A DNA stretch of 64,000 nt. Origin: Phycisphaerae bacterium (GTDB lineage Bacteria; Planctomycetota; Phycisphaerae; UBA1845). The translations under genes and the position numbers were made by a program. Positions 890-49,344 of the stretch are shown here, in pieces. Position 1 is the stretch's first letter, and every line of letters begins with the position of its first letter. The notes under the pieces are model-generated. The model searched no databases and was not told the DNA's origin. It saw nothing but the letters and a program-made list of their open reading frames with translations. The DNA is taken from assembly GCA_029260135.1 (NCBI GenBank), contig JAJDDV010000053.1:1-64000 (forward strand), read 5' to 3'.

Positions 890-1159
890 CGGCGGCGCTG
901 CGTTTTGCCATGCCAGCCGACGCAGGAGGCACGAACCGCTGGCCATCAGCCTTCGGCTGACAGATCACGCCCACCTCGATTCCCGCTTGCTAAGGGGGGA
1001 GGCAAAGCTGGCGGCGGTCCGGGACCGGCCACCGGCTACGATCTGGCGCCCTTCAGCCTGCAATGCGGAACGGACGTCAACCCGCGCTGTCTACAACAAC
1101 GCTCTGCCCGCTCCATGACTGTCGCGGCTCGGATTGACCGGGGCTACCGGTTGAAACTC
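890..1159. other. Spacer of decayed sequence with REP-like hairpins
   Basis: No credible gene. It holds the hairpin CAGCCTTCGGCTG near 948, a GCTTGCTAAGGGGGGAGGC segment (985-1003) related to the C-run/G-run palindromes at 26397 and 44571, and one copy of the GCTCC...GGTCGCGGC repeat at 1105. Confidence 0.5.
1105..1131. repeat. Dispersed repeat family A, copy 1
   Basis: Carries GCCCGCTCCATGACTGTCGC followed by GGCTC. The same 25 bases recur exactly at 2676-2700. Divergent relatives are at 2514 and 26075. Confidence 0.7.
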
Positions 1160-2674: not shown

Positions 2675-2701
2675 AGCCCGCTCCATGACTGTCGCGGCTC
2701 T
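2675..2701. repeat. Dispersed repeat family A, copy 3
   Basis: 25 bases identical to the copy at 1106-1130, about 1.6 kb away and in the same orientation. The two copies bracket the FAD oxidoreductase gene. Confidence 0.7.
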
Positions 2702-23390: not shown

Positions 23391-26222
23391 CTACACCGCC
23401 GCGCGCTTCTTACGCCTGTGCCAGACACGCGTTGCGACCGCCGCCAGAACCGCCACCATCACCAGCCAGGGCGCCATCACAATCAACCCGTACGCAATGA
23501 ACCCCAGCGAGCTGTACAATCCCGCCAACCCGTCGCGAAGGCGCTTACGAATCGTCTCGCCCGCCCGCTCCGGCCCGGGACCGATGGCCGACTTCTCCGC
23601 AAGCGTCAACGAGACGACACCCATCGCATCCGGATGCGCGCGAGATAGATCACCCAGGCCAGCCCCTTCAATCTGCCGCATCAGCACCCGACCCAGCGAG
23701 CCAAACCGAGCGATCACCTTGTCCAGGTCGCCGGCTTTGATCCCCAGTCGAAACCCGCCCGACCAGCTCTCGTCCGATCGCTGATGACTAGACGACTCCA
23801 GCACCTGCACGTCATACTCTGCCACCAGCTTGCTCAACTGATCCCGTGCAGGATCGAACGCCGCCACCTCCACGAGCATTCGCCCGCTCGGCACCTCGCG
23901 CGGACGCTCCGACAATCTCAGCGAGAGCTGACACAACGTCTCCGCCGCCCCGCCGACGATTCGCCCGGCCTCTCCCGAGACGTTCTTCGCCGTCGTCCGC
24001 CCGAGCAATGCCAACGCTTCCGCCAACTCGCCGAATCGTCCGGCCGGAACGCGCACGTTGATCGCGGCTGCACTCGACCCGTCGTCCTGACGCGTCGTCT
24101 GGTTCGACACAATCGAACCACCCGCCGCTTCCAGTGTCGACGTCAACCGCTCAATCGATGCCCCAAGCTCATCCACCTCGATACTCATCGATCCGCTCGG
24201 CAGCTCGCGCGTCCGCTCGTACAAGCTCAGCGCCACGTTGCACGGAACACTGGCCGCCCACGCCGACGACGCCTCGCCGAACTGCTGATCGCTGACCTGA
24301 CGATTCTCCACCCTCCCGAGCGACTCGACCGCGCCCAGCAACTCCGCGAACCTCGACAGATTCACCTGAAGCTGATAACTCCCCACCAGCGACCCGCTCG
24401 TATGCTTGGCCGTGCTGCCCGAGGTGAGCCGACCGTCGAACTGCTCGAGAACATCGCCCAGCACCGCCGCAGCCTCACCCAACACCGCCACCTCGACCGA
24501 CAGCGTCGCCGACGGCACGGTTCGGGACGGCTCGTGTAGCGTCAGGTGGATCGTCGACTGCGCCACCCGATCCGCCATTACGCGAAGCTCGCCCATGAGC
24601 TGCTCGATCTGCGAACGCACGCGCGTCATCTCGCGCTCGACCTCCAGCAGCGACGAAATCTTGTCGACGAACGATTTATTGGAGATCAGCTCCTGCAGGC
24701 GCTTCTCCGTAATCTCGAGGCCGGTGATTCGAGCTTCCAGATCGACATAGGCCGCGGTGACGTCGGCCGCCTTGACATTCTCCGACTCCACCCGGCCAAG
24801 GCCCTTCAATGCGGCGAAGAGCGCCTCGAACCGCTCCGGCGCCACGCGAATGACGAACGACCCCGCCAGCGCTCCGCCCGCCTGCTCATGCGTCGACGCA
24901 TCAGCCATGGCTGCGTCGTGCTGCTTGACTACACTCTCCACCCGCGCGACGGCCTCGTTGTACGACGCAACCTCGGCCGTCAGATGTCCGGTCTTGATGA
25001 TCTTGGTCGCGGAACGCGCTTGTGGCTGCGCGGATGCGGGAGCGCTCGAAGAGTCTTCCTGCGCGGTCGTCGAGTAGCCTCCTAGCCCACTACCACCACC
25101 AAAGATGGTCTGACCCACCTGCTGTTCGTCGAGTGTCTTCGTCTTTTTCTTCGACGCGCTGCGTACAGATCCTCTCCGGCTTCGTGCGGAGGGATCCTTC
25201 TTCAGTCTGTCTATTAGCGTCGCAATTGCATCGGCGGGGACGCGGCCAACTGTGATCATTCGGGCATCGCCAGCCGTCCCATCCGCGTCCACGGCTCCGT
25301 CTGTATTGGCGTCGACGAATTGCCCTCCCGACGAATCGTCGCCGGAGTTAGAGGCAAAAGCGTACCGTATATCTGGCGGCGTCAGATCCACGGCAGACCC
25401 GGCGTTGACCGAATCTAATGACATAGGCGTGTAGACACTTCCAGCCTTCGCAACCGACTCTTCCGTTCCGGCCGCCCCGTGCCACGAGTACGCGCCGACG
25501 TAAGCGGGAGGGGTAATTCCTTTGCCTACCTTTCGGCCGCTACTGTCTGCGTACTGGCGCGGATGCACAGGTATCCCCCACCCATCCGCGTCATACTCGC
25601 CGCTTCTTGGCATACTCGACGCAGGGACGTTGGCCGGGAGCTCTGCGGCCGTCCGCGCGCGGCTCAGGCCGCTCACCGCGTGAATATTCCGTTCCGCACC
25701 AAGTCGAAACGCAATCCCTAGCACGGCTGCGATCCCCACGCTCGCAGCCGCAAACGTCCACAGCCACCCGTGCTTCCCCGGCGTTACCGCTACGGATCCG
25801 CCGTTCAGACCGGCCGTCGCAATCGCGGTCCACATCGTTTCGATCTCCTGGGCTCCGGGTTTCTCGTTCGCGGCGTCCACAACGAGCGCACGCGTCCGGC
25901 GAAGCTCCGCCAGATCCGCCGAGCAGCGCTCGCACGTCGCCAGATGCGCGTCCAGATCGGACCAGTCCTGCTCGGTCCCTGCGGTGGACCCCGTGGGCGG
26001 AGAAGAAGGTGCATCAAGATGCACCCTGCGCGACTCGGTCCCCGCAGGCGGAAGGGTCGACTCCTCCTGCGCTACCGCTCCCTTACGGTCGCGGCTCGGA
26101 TCAGGCGCACGCTTCGCGCTGCCCGCGTCCGCCGGTCGTCCCCCGCCTCCGAAGGAGGCGGGCCACCCAGCCTCTTCATGAAGCCGCCGGTCAATCAGTT
26201 CTTTTGCTTGATGACAGTCCAT
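23391..26222 (-). CDS. Membrane anti-sigma factor with zinc finger and tandem DUF4349-type domains
   Basis: 943 residues. The N-terminus has a split zf-HC2 anti-sigma zinc finger: MDCHQAKELIDRRLHEE and, about 75 residues later, LDAHLATCERCSADL. The insert between them is repeat-derived (see 25975-26175). A transmembrane helix lies near 165-185 (WLWTFAAASVGIAAVLGIAF), then a low-complexity region, then from about residue 410 four successive domains of the DUF4349 type (KIIKTGHLTAEVASYNEAVARVE...GSFVIRVAPERFEALFAAL), the first including a coiled coil (LEARITGLEITEKRLQEL...). A C-terminal helix (APWLVMVAVLAAVATRVW) ends in a basic tail. Immediately downstream of an ECF sigma gene, so it likely holds that sigma factor at the inner membrane and senses the periplasm. 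Confidence 0.82.
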   Translation of the reverse strand: MDCHQAKELIDRRLHEEAGWPASFGGGGRPADAGSAKRAPDPSRDRKGAVAQEESTLPPAGTESRRVHLDAPSSPPTGSTAGTEQDWSDLDAHLATCERCSADLAELRRTRALVVDAANEKPGAQEIETMWTAIATAGLNGGSVAVTPGKHGWLWTFAAASVGIAAVLGIAFRLGAERNIHAVSGLSRARTAAELPANVPASSMPRSGEYDADGWGIPVHPRQYADSSGRKVGKGITPPAYVGAYSWHGAAGTEESVAKAGSVYTPMSLDSVNAGSAVDLTPPDIRYAFASNSGDDSSGGQFVDANTDGAVDADGTAGDARMITVGRVPADAIATLIDRLKKDPSARSRRGSVRSASKKKTKTLDEQQVGQTIFGGGSGLGGYSTTAQEDSSSAPASAQPQARSATKIIKTGHLTAEVASYNEAVARVESVVKQHDAAMADASTHEQAGGALAGSFVIRVAPERFEALFAALKGLGRVESENVKAADVTAAYVDLEARITGLEITEKRLQELISNKSFVDKISSLLEVEREMTRVRSQIEQLMGELRVMADRVAQSTIHLTLHEPSRTVPSATLSVEVAVLGEAAAVLGDVLEQFDGRLTSGSTAKHTSGSLVGSYQLQVNLSRFAELLGAVESLGRVENRQVSDQQFGEASSAWAASVPCNVALSLYERTRELPSGSMSIEVDELGASIERLTSTLEAAGGSIVSNQTTRQDDGSSAAAINVRVPAGRFGELAEALALLGRTTAKNVSGEAGRIVGGAAETLCQLSLRLSERPREVPSGRMLVEVAAFDPARDQLSKLVAEYDVQVLESSSHQRSDESWSGGFRLGIKAGDLDKVIARFGSLGRVLMRQIEGAGLGDLSRAHPDAMGVVSLTLAEKSAIGPGPERAGETIRKRLRDGLAGLYSSLGFIAYGLIVMAPWLVMVAVLAAVATRVWHRRKKRAAV
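25975..26175. repeat. Repeat mosaic inserted in frame in the anti-sigma gene
   Basis: About 200 nt made of spacer-type modules: GGTGCATCAAGATGCACC (26008-26025; a relative is at 30227-30243), a family A repeat at 26075-26100, and the hairpin CCCGCCTCCGAAGGAGGCGGG (arms CCGCCTCC/GGAGGCGG) at about 26143-26163. Translated, it gives a proline/serine/arginine-rich segment without similarity to the zf-HC2 family. Confidence 0.75.
26075..26100. repeat. Dispersed repeat family A, copy 4
   Basis: CCGCTCCCTTACGGTCGCGG followed by CTCGGA; same frame of bases as the copies at 1105, 2514 and 2675, but inside a coding region. Confidence 0.65.
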
Positions 26223-26523: not shown

Positions 26524-27105
26524 TCACGACGGCTCAACCTCCCTGCACCGATCACCCTCACCGACATACGCCCCAAGCCGATCTCGAAGCCCCCGCCGAG
26601 CACGAAACAACGTCACCTTCACGCGTGACTCGCCCCAGCCCAGAACCTCGCCCGCCTCACGAATGGAAAACCCCGACAGCTCACACAACACAATCGCGTC
26701 GCGTTGCGATCCCGGAAGATCAGCCACCGCCGTTCGAACCGCCTCGCGAACCTCCCCTCCTTCGACCGAGCCCGACTCATCCTCCGCCGCCGCCACGATC
26801 CGAATCACACCCGGCTCGTCGCCGCGGGCTCGATCCCGCACCGCCCGCCGCGCCCGTTCGATCGCCACCGACCGCGTCACCGCAAACAACCAGGTCGACA
26901 GCGAACTCCGCCCCTGGAAACCGCGAATGGATCGCATCACGCGCAGAAACACGTCCTGCACGATCTCCGCGGCTTCCTCGCGCGAGTGCGTGCGCAACCA
27001 CGCATACCGCCAAACACGATCGACGTAGCGCCGGTACAGCACCTCGAGCGCCACCCGGTCGCCCTTCGCCGCTCGCTTCGCCAAATGCGCTTCACCGTCG
27101 GCCAT
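26524..27105 (-). CDS. ECF (sigma-70 family) RNA polymerase sigma factor
   Basis: 193 residues. Region 2: ALEVLYRRYVDRVWRYAWLRTHSREEAAEIVQDVFLRV...SLSTWLFAVTRSVAIERARR (residues 18-87). Region 4: LPGSQRDAIVLCELSGFSIREAGEVLGWGESRVKVTLFRARRGLRDRL (about 128-176) with the helix-turn-helix. AGGAG 7 nt before the ATG supports the start. It is followed on the same strand, after a repeat-filled 300-nt spacer, by a membrane zf-HC2 anti-sigma factor, the usual arrangement for envelope-stress ECF pairs. Confidence 0.93.
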   Translation of the reverse strand: MADGEAHLAKRAAKGDRVALEVLYRRYVDRVWRYAWLRTHSREEAAEIVQDVFLRVMRSIRGFQGRSSLSTWLFAVTRSVAIERARRAVRDRARGDEPGVIRIVAAAEDESGSVEGGEVREAVRTAVADLPGSQRDAIVLCELSGFSIREAGEVLGWGESRVKVTLFRARRGLRDRLGAYVGEGDRCREVEPS

Positions 27106-30215: not shown

Positions 30216-30520
30216 GAGAGGTAGGGTGCATCTGGATGCACCTCCTGCAGCCTGAAAGGCTGCGAGATCGTAGCCGGTGGCAAGGCCGCCAAAGGCGATC
30301 GCCGCCACCGGATCAAGCCACCCCCCCAAACACCACGACCCTGTAAGGGTCGAAGACACTTGACGTTGGGTGCTATGGCAAGGTGAAGCGCGGCCATGCG
30401 TAGGTCCCCTCCCGTTGGGAGAGGTCGGGAAGGCCCCGCGTGCCACTGACCACTTGCCCACCAGTGTTTGCCAACGAGCACCGGCGAGCGGCCCGATTCG
30501 CTGCCCCCCCCACTCTCGCG
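30216..30520. other. Spacer with palindromic repeats
   Basis: No gene. It has GGGTGCATCTGGATGCACC (30225-30243), GCAGCCTGAAAGGCTGC (30248-30264) and CACTGACCACTTGCCCACCAGTG-like sequence (30435-30465), all resembling modules elsewhere in the window. Confidence 0.55.
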
Positions 30521-32325: not shown

Positions 32326-33001
32326 GCGAACGCTTGCGGGGTCTCCCTCGCAGGCGCAAGGTGGTATCCAGTCCGAGGCGCTGAGCGATGCGGAACCGCC
32401 ATGCCTCCTGCCCGAACGGAACGCCCCGCGCCGCTGACAGGCGTACAGTGAGCAGTTCCTCCTCATCGATCACAGCGTTTGTCTGCGCGAGCCAGTTCCG
32501 CGGTCGATCTACCGGCCACGTTGACAGACAAGTAAGCAGCGCAGATCGGCGATTACGCCGGACCCACAAGCTTCCCCAGCGCCAGTCCTCCGCTCGCCGC
32601 ACGAGCTTCGCCCGTCGAGGGTTGGCCTCCACATAACGGCAGACGGTCAGGAAGTGCGAATCGTCCTGCACAGGAAAGCTCCTGAATCGACCTTGATAGA
32701 GCGGTCCCTCGCCGGCCGTGTGGGTGTGGGCGTGCCACCGGTGCGTGTGCGTGACCGTCACCCATTGCATCCAGGTCGATAGATGGGTGCGTTGGCCAGC
32801 CAGAACAACGATGTGCCAGTGATTGGGCATCAGACACCACGCGAGCAGAGACGGCGCATCCGGACGTTCCAGCGACGCAGCCAATACCCGCTCGAACGCG
32901 AGGTAGTCAGCAGCCTTCTCGAAGAGCGGCAGTCGCATCACCCGCCGGTTCAAGACGTGGTAGACAAGCCCGGCCTGCGTGACCCGTGGTGATCGTCCCA
33001 T
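32312..33001 (-). CDS. REP-associated tyrosine transposase (RAYT, Y1/IS200-like) 1
   Basis: 229 residues. It has the HUH motif in the RAYT form LMPNHWHIVVL (residues 56-66), the N-terminal YHVLNRRVMRLPLFEKAADY, and the catalytic-Tyr helix region DDSHFLTVCRYVEANPRRAKLVRRAEDWRWGS. RAYTs are single-strand transposase relatives that cut and rejoin short hairpin repeats (REPs). The coding end overlaps the left repeat cluster, and inverted copies lie 30-100 nt beyond the start codon, so gene and repeats form one unit. Not closely related to the second RAYT at 48763, which uses MPEHLHLIV. Confidence 0.92.
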   Translation of the reverse strand: MGRSPRVTQAGLVYHVLNRRVMRLPLFEKAADYLAFERVLAASLERPDAPSLLAWCLMPNHWHIVVLAGQRTHLSTWMQWVTVTHTHRWHAHTHTAGEGPLYQGRFRSFPVQDDSHFLTVCRYVEANPRRAKLVRRAEDWRWGSLWVRRNRRSALLTCLSTWPVDRPRNWLAQTNAVIDEEELLTVRLSAARGVPFGQEAWRFRIAQRLGLDTTLRLRGRPRKRSQKSS

Positions 33002-34811: not shown

Positions 34812-35212
34812 TCAACCCGCCGGACAGCAGGGACCAGGGAGATGGGTTTCAGGTGTTCGGAGACATGGGTAACACCTCAGGCCGGCTGCGGAACCAGAAT
34901 CAGGCACGATCACCCAGGCTCGCCGCCCGGCCGACACCCCTGCCGGGCAGGTTCCCCTGCCGCGACTGCAAGGGAGCGGCCGTCGCTCCACGATCATCCC
35001 ATCCCGCCCCTGCCCCGGCATCTTGAGGAATCCCGTCCTCCCCCTTCGTCGCACAGTGGCTCCGTCGCTTCGTCGCTTCCTCCCCCCACAATCCCGACGA
35101 CCGTCGCCCACGCCCCAGATCCGCCGGTTTTGGGGCTTGACGCCGCGGGCTCAGCAGGTAGAGTGTGTTGCTCGGCGCTGATTACAACGAGCCGAAGAAG
35201 AGCGTTAACGTT

Positions 35213-48762: not shown

Positions 48763-49344
48763 ATGCCCTCGCGACTGCGCCGTTATGACGTACCGGGACA
48801 CTCACACTTCTGGACGGTCTCATGCTACCGTCGTCTCACGTTCTTCTGGCACGACGACATGAAGCGCGTCGTTGTCGATGGACTTCGTCGTCTACAGGAG
48901 CGCTACGGTCTCTGCATCATCGCGTACGTCGTCATGCCGGAGCATCTGCACCTTATCGTGTATCCGCACGCAAAGGGCGATGATCGCCCCATTCCCATTT
49001 CACACGTATGGGAATCGTTCAAGAAGTACATCGGGTACCACGGCAAAGCGTGCCTGCGGCGTCTCTGGCGAGAGCGTGGAGAGCTCTGGTCACCGCCTTT
49101 GAATGCATGGGCACGCGGCGGGCCGGAGAAGCGGATCATCATGGAAACGCGGGGCTACGACTTCAACATCGATCGGGAGACGACGCTTCTCGAAAAGATC
49201 GACTATAGTCACAAGAACCCGATCACGCGCGGGCTGGTCGATCGGGCGGACGATTGGCGCTGGAGCAGCTATCGTTACTATGAGCTTGATGACTCGTCGG
49301 TGTTGAGGATGGACTGGGATGGCGGCTGGCCAATCGTATGGTGA
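48763..49344 (+). CDS. REP-associated tyrosine transposase (RAYT) 2
   Basis: 193 residues. HUH motif in VMPEHLHLIVYP (residues 57-68), N-terminal YDVPGHSHFWTVSCYRRLTFF, and the tail block LLEKIDYSHKNPITRGLVDRADDWRWSSYRYY with the candidate catalytic Tyr. It differs from RAYT-1 in HUH context and length. REP copies lie on both sides: copy 2 upstream in direct and copies 3 and 4 downstream in inverted orientation, so it is the likely source of the REP family spread over 47.6-51.2 kb. Confidence 0.92.
   Translation: MPSRLRRYDVPGHSHFWTVSCYRRLTFFWHDDMKRVVVDGLRRLQERYGLCIIAYVVMPEHLHLIVYPHAKGDDRPIPISHVWESFKKYIGYHGKACLRRLWRERGELWSPPLNAWARGGPEKRIIMETRGYDFNIDRETTLLEKIDYSHKNPITRGLVDRADDWRWSSYRYYELDDSSVLRMDWDGGWPIVW

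Follow-up and report, generated by a model that had tools for sequence, protein, structure and literature searches.

The putative zinc-binding N-terminus of an anti-sigma-type membrane protein from a Phycisphaerae bacterium is interrupted by a linker whose DNA is a mosaic of three repeat families dispersed through the source genome. The insert probably represents REP-type elements, moved by RAYT transposases, that entered the loop joining helices 1 and 2 and stayed close to neutral, the binding of zinc and of the sigma factor being presumably kept. The gene lies in a stretch of 64,000 nucleotides, which we call the window; it belongs to a 108-kb contig of a draft genome of 224 contigs.

The putative zinc-binding domain and its variable loop

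The inferred product of the gene is 943 residues long and exhibits five stretches of similarity to DUF4349 (Pfam, E 6.9e-74). Its translation, MDCHQAKELIDRR...QDWSDLDAHLATCERC, is as given in a preliminary description of this DNA. The protein begins with an M-x-C-x-x-A helix, followed at a distance by H-x3-C-x2-C, and a gene for an ECF sigma factor is located directly upstream on the same strand. A ligand in helix 1, the subsequent H-x3-C-x2-C and the neighboring ECF sigma gene are all features of the ZAS type. The relevant features are as follows.

23391..26222, minus strand: open reading frame for the anti-sigma-type membrane protein of 943 residues, with a zinc-binding N-terminus and DUF4349 stretches
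26524..27105, minus strand: ECF sigma factor gene (Pfam Sigma70_r2, E 8e-15; Sigma70_r4_2, E 1.6e-11)
26169..26222, minus strand: helix 1, residues 1-18, with Cys3, the presumed first zinc ligand (C3 and A6 invariant in eight orthologues; helix predicted at residues 3-17)
25968..26168, minus strand: inserted linker, residues 19-85 (short or absent in five of the seven other orthologues; predicted pLDDT 43-51 at residues 21-80; codon log-odds -0.07)
25923..25946, minus strand: H93-x3-C97-x2-C100 (invariant in eight orthologues)

Relatives in seven other genomes of the family (G002, G003, G006, G012, G042, G056 and G060) keep the zinc-binding start, and we aligned them with the window protein to give a set of eight, leaving out partial matches without an N-terminus (G007, G014 and G017). 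M1, C3, A6, L90, H93, L94, C97 and C100 are invariant in this alignment. All eight proteins thus retain C3, H93, C97 and C100, which, by analogy with known ZAS proteins, we take to be the zinc ligands. A profile built from the eight N-termini matches 3hug_B (E 0.0013) and RsiW (E 0.0064). The preliminary description had named the domain zf-HC2; the window protein scores below the Pfam cut-off (15.9 versus 22.2 bits), whereas two of the seven other orthologues, those of G006 (23.8 bits) and G056 (32.2 bits), pass it. Among the other relatives, one in G050 (L154) has lost the zinc ligands and one in G029, a member of another family (L005), has no zinc-binding domain, so the DUF4349 part can exist without the zinc-binding start.

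The linker is bounded by helix 1 and the conserved residues D86-W87. The same description held that about 75 extra residues split the zinc-binding motif and formed a new disordered linker. The split is confirmed by comparison with the five short-linker orthologues, but the net excess over them is about 59-65 residues. Nor is the linker new: an old variable loop has been lengthened, with a few of residues 19-85 presumably ancestral, given that orthologues retain a short linker. Its disorder is a prediction (pLDDT 43-51).

Two orthologues depart from the short form. The linker DNA of G012 consists of repeats dispersed through the G012 genome (44 matches, including itself) that are unlike those of the window gene, and a second G012 insert, just before the membrane segment (L002, query bases 315-411 from the ATG), likewise matches dispersed G012 repeats. 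In the moderately longer linker of G002 no repeats were found, its best foreign match reaching an E value of 0.11, so that a repeat origin for it has no support; the loop can evidently lengthen without repeats. Orthologues with an equally long linker of unrelated DNA would, according to the preliminary description, have overturned its reading; of the seven others, five are short, G012 carries different repeats and G002 is moderately longer. To judge from the aligned orthologues, the loop can vary widely in both length and sequence, and in two genera repeats seem to have arrived there independently.

An AlphaFold2 model of the window N-terminal domain, based on an alignment of five rows, predicts helices with high confidence at residues 3-17, 88-96 and 98-119, that is, on both sides of the linker. 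The same helices are predicted in the insert-free orthologue of G006, at residues 3-15, 23-31 and 33-54. Closure of the zinc site across the linker, a matter that the preliminary description had proposed to settle by structure prediction, is plausible. We grade it so because pTM is 0.41 for both models and because Foldseek returned no significant solved structure from the PDB for either.

A mosaic of dispersed repeats

Three modules, each of 36-49 nucleotides, make up the mosaic. They are listed here with further copies in the window (strand is given where one was assigned).

26138..26178: module C, the CCGCCTCC hairpin with a flank reaching the end of helix 1 (7 genome matches; DNA fold z -2.0); hairpin CCCGCCTCCGAAGGAGGCGGG at 26142-26162
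26070..26118: module A, a RAYT-associated repeat read as SRDRKGA (24 genome matches; 30 pattern copies versus 0 in the control; flanks AlaRS-resident RAYTs); core at 26075-26097
25997..26032: module B, the GTGCATC/GATGCAC palindrome (24 genome matches); palindrome GGTGCATCAAGATGCACC at 26008-26025
1108..1130, plus strand: family A copy (match to the A pattern)
2678..2700, plus strand: family A copy (match to the A pattern)
34957-34979, strand not given: weak family A-like copy (sequence match)
30225..30242: module B copy (sequence match)

When the 196-nucleotide stretch 25985-26180 was compared with its own genome, 56 matches were obtained, including itself, of which, by query range, 24 fell within A, 24 within B and 7 within C. 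This bears out the earlier claim that the insert is built of three repeat modules found elsewhere. Together with the short linkers of five of the seven other orthologues, the module copies also support the claim that palindromic elements were inserted after helix 1 with the frame kept. No second copy of the whole mosaic was found in the genome, nor did any other match span more than one module in a single alignment. Thus, the mosaic as a whole is unique. However, C lies close to B or to A in contigs C82, C140 and C176, and hence mosaics form elsewhere too.

A degenerate A pattern has 30 copies in the source genome and is present in 63 of the 114 genomes of the order; the reversed control has none in any of them. 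Within the window, B gives five matches (both strands of the palindrome counted) versus a shuffle mean of 0.19, and C has no second copy. GTAG/CTAC stands at the stem edge in 17 of the 20 B copies listed, although the B copy in the anti-sigma gene is without this tag, and the consensus of 56 family A copies has no conserved GTAG or CGTC tag. Folding is weak for A (z -0.84) and better for B and C (z about -2).

The repeats avoid genes. By a codon-usage rule, 3 of 77 distinct copies (55 A, 20 B and 2 C, taken from the best-matching loci) are genic, as compared with 325 of 600 random window positions. The rule requires 40 codons on each side and therefore misses the anti-sigma copy itself; copy counts rest on sequence searches and the stretches retrieved. 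Families A and B are thus short palindromes with many dispersed, mostly intergenic copies, as is characteristic of REPs. Two of the three genic copies flank a RAYT in alanyl-tRNA synthetase (AlaRS) and the other lies in valyl-tRNA synthetase (ValRS). Such segments had been described at the outset as rarely reported in planctomycetes, but within this clade they are no rarity: family A is in frame in both synthetases of the very same genome.

The insert also differs from its surroundings in codon usage. Its mean codon log-odds is -0.07, as against 0.18 for the flanking domain and 0.25 for the DUF4349 part (the training set includes the anti-sigma open reading frame). Its codon usage is unlike that of the host, as expected of DNA not shaped as coding sequence. 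We considered whether the repeats are specially stop-free, single copies being open in four to six of the six frames, but when the whole insert was shuffled with its dinucleotides preserved, 356 of 1000 shuffles were open in a given frame. The openness of the insert is therefore not unusual, and we claim no special adaptation.

RAYT domains within essential enzymes

The source genome contains 11 matches to Y1_Tnp (PF01797). On contig C127 (L270:1144-5343), a RAYT is located between inverted family A copies in a single open frame with AlaRS. The order is tRNA-synt_2c positions 1-263, SRDRKGA, the RAYT, PLPYGRGS, and tRNA-synt_2c from 264 onward, and this is the only AlaRS found in the genome, which is 94.8% complete. 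On contig C124 (L271:1177-3519), the purine biosynthesis protein PurH carries an in-frame RAYT of another type, which does not reach Pfam Y1_Tnp at E 1e-5 and was identified by a Y1_Tnp search of the genome, and on contig C152 (L086:794-3022) ValRS carries a lone in-frame family A segment, again SRDRKGA. One copy of module B adjoins a further RAYT. The window has Y1_Tnp matches at 32624-32971 (minus strand) and 48802-48975 (plus strand), the second below the family cut-off; no copies of A, B or C were found around them at the thresholds used.

We then surveyed Y1_Tnp/RAYT matches in long open frames by Pfam scan in 51 genomes (among the matches listed) and then in the 114 genomes of the order. 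The survey yielded at least 32 proteins with an in-frame RAYT (33 domains in all), mostly essential enzymes, from at least 30 of the 114 genomes; the count is a lower bound, since of the matches in open frames of about 300-470 residues it covers a minority. The hosts were as follows.

AlaRS: at least 12 genomes, 13 domains
PurH: at least 9, including the source genome (eight in other genomes)
ValRS: at least 4 (G018, G024, G026 and G048)
LeuRS: at least 2
MmeI-type methyltransferase: at least 2
N6/N4-type methyltransferase: at least 2
MutS: at least 1, with the RAYT fused ahead of domain I

Some of the 32 proteins miss Y1_Tnp at E 1e-5, the RAYT domain having been identified in these by the Y1_Tnp/RAYT genome search, and the frames of four AlaRS, one PurH and one MmeI-type protein run off their contigs. 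Three candidates were dropped: L273 and L299, which had Y1_Tnp only and no host domain, and L266, whose frame, read by eye, is a probable antisense overlap. Two of the retained proteins have unusual architectures. A single AlaRS frame of 1686 residues (L286:2780-7837, G036:C11) holds a pair of RAYT domains, each of them accompanied by inverted copies of family A; the MutS protein (L262:864-5087, G062:C20) carries, in addition to the RAYT, a long run of tandem peptide repeats, likewise ahead of domain I.

The PurH inserts end just before the stretch FIKHTNACG in eight of nine cases, the ninth being cut by a contig end. Despite this common end point, their Y-motifs divide them into two types of RAYT. 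In six AlaRS-embedded RAYTs (158 gap-free codons), pooled differences at codon positions 1, 2 and 3 were 0.288, 0.238 and 0.612, and in the AlaRS host part 0.161, 0.112 and 0.459. Coding constraint thus extends across the transposase part of the frame. An HxH motif is kept in 32 of the 33 RAYT domains and a Y-x-x(x)-Q/N motif in 31, and we take these two to be the catalytic motifs. The tyrosine of K-S-Y-A-T-R had been a candidate, but it is absent from the PurH-type domains and the later motif was used instead. HUH and a tyrosine are named for RAYTs in an excerpt of PMC3733652.

An inverted pair of A copies within 330 nucleotides accompanied all 13 AlaRS domains, one of the four in ValRS, none of the 16 in other hosts and none of 29 other RAYT loci, whereas random positions in the same loci had any A copy at all in 14 of 336 cases. 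Among the REP families, the association with a RAYT holds for family A only. Counting against a simple pairing, no close RAYT relative was detected, at the search threshold, in the A-rich genomes G005 and G043. Pfam found no intein or Hint domain in the RAYT-bearing proteins (E 1e-5), and nothing points to splicing. We put at about even the chance that some REP/RAYT elements of this order live translated. On this reading the transposase, having no frame of its own, would be an unspliced internal domain of AlaRS, PurH, ValRS or LeuRS, its expression and retention guaranteed, while its satellites would spread and sometimes become protein segments, as in the anti-sigma factor.

Origin of the insert and its relation to known systems

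How might the mosaic have arisen? We propose that small dispersed palindromic elements of the REP type entered the zinc-binding domain in the loop that joins helices 1 and 2 and that the insert would have been retained because its summed length was in frame and the loop is tolerant of length. Movement would have occurred in trans, through RAYT (HUH, Y1-type) transposases acting on single-stranded hairpins, and the likely transposase for family A would be the RAYT in frame inside the AlaRS of the source genome. The mosaic may have accreted stepwise. The insert would be close to neutral, and the domain, as modeled, could still bind zinc and its sigma factor across the disordered linker. Counting against this account are the pairing with a RAYT, which is seen for A only, and the loop of G002, which lengthened without repeats. 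It is also conceivable, though rather unlikely, that a mosaic already present in a spacer was recombined or copied into the gene, in place of the transposition of single elements. A, B and C do lie near one another in other spacers, but no other site aligns with more than one module of the anti-sigma mosaic at once.

A different possibility is that the insert has been co-opted, its hairpins near the 5' end of the mRNA lowering translation of the anti-sigma factor relative to the sigma factor, or the longer tether altering the holding or release of the sigma factor. Two stable hairpins are indeed located within the first 230 nucleotides of the gene, and repeats occupy the same loop in the second genus. 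The codon usage of the insert, which is not host-like, and the very different loop lengths and sequences tolerated among orthologues nevertheless make co-option unlikely. It is highly improbable that the insert is untranslated, with the true start downstream and the repeats in the leader. REPs at annotated 5' ends are often probably not translated, according to the excerpted text of PMC3733652, and no strong Shine-Dalgarno sequence precedes ATG1. However, the first 110 codons contain just one other in-frame start codon, GTG67, which itself falls within the insert, and a start there would discard the M-x-C-x-x-A helix, which is conserved in the eight orthologues and is encoded ahead of the insert without a change of frame; a start beyond the insert, which the preliminary description had said would overturn its reading, was thus not found. 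Finally, the modules are repeats in a draft assembly, and such repeats can be mis-joined. An artefact of this kind is extremely improbable, in that the modules are below ordinary read length, the mosaic occurs nowhere else, both flanks belong to one gene and one frame inside the 108-kb contig, and G012 has a comparable insert.

The repeat-coded protein segment is in itself already known. An excerpt of PMC3733652 describes REPs inside genes of several species, with clusters encoding 43-82 residues, different REPs at about one site in recB of two Xanthomonas species, intragenic targets that include tRNA synthetases, and REPs in Planctomycetes. Like the intragenic REPs of the GTAG/CGTC families in that excerpt, the modules described here are short palindromes, scattered in many copies, that are read in frame as part of conserved proteins. 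Unlike them, the anti-sigma insert combines three unrelated families and lies between zinc ligands, and the family A consensus is without the GTAG/CGTC tag. Rickettsia palindromic elements are, by description, similar in being palindromic insertions in frame in otherwise conserved proteins; they differ in belonging to another phylum, and for family A we propose a RAYT as partner. What makes the anti-sigma case unusual is that it lies between zinc ligands, is composed of three families and has a counterpart in a second genus.

More surprising among our findings is the RAYT in frame within essential enzymes. With its inverted flanking repeats and their dispersal through the genome, it resembles the REPtron (a RAYT with flanking REPs) of the PMC3733652 excerpt. 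It departs from the REPtron in that the family A RAYT lacks a separate reading frame, being an internal in-frame segment of AlaRS. Inteins are in-frame elements with a DNA-acting enzyme in conserved essential proteins, recurrent at one site. The embedded RAYTs share with inteins an in-frame DNA-acting enzyme, essential host proteins and a recurrent site, but not, as noted above, the intein/Hint domain. A literature search of partial coverage found no report of a RAYT in frame inside AlaRS, PurH, ValRS or LeuRS, which is weak evidence of novelty.

Repeat-coded segments are usually found without their source. In the present case we identified orthologues that lack the insert, an independent insertion of other repeats at the corresponding loop of G012, and a likely transposase. 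Annotators should be aware that long internal segments occur in the AlaRS, PurH and ValRS proteins of this clade; since these segments are found again in further genomes, assembly errors are an unlikely cause. Should the embedded RAYTs prove active, in-frame residence in an essential enzyme would be a selfish element's escape from loss without splicing.
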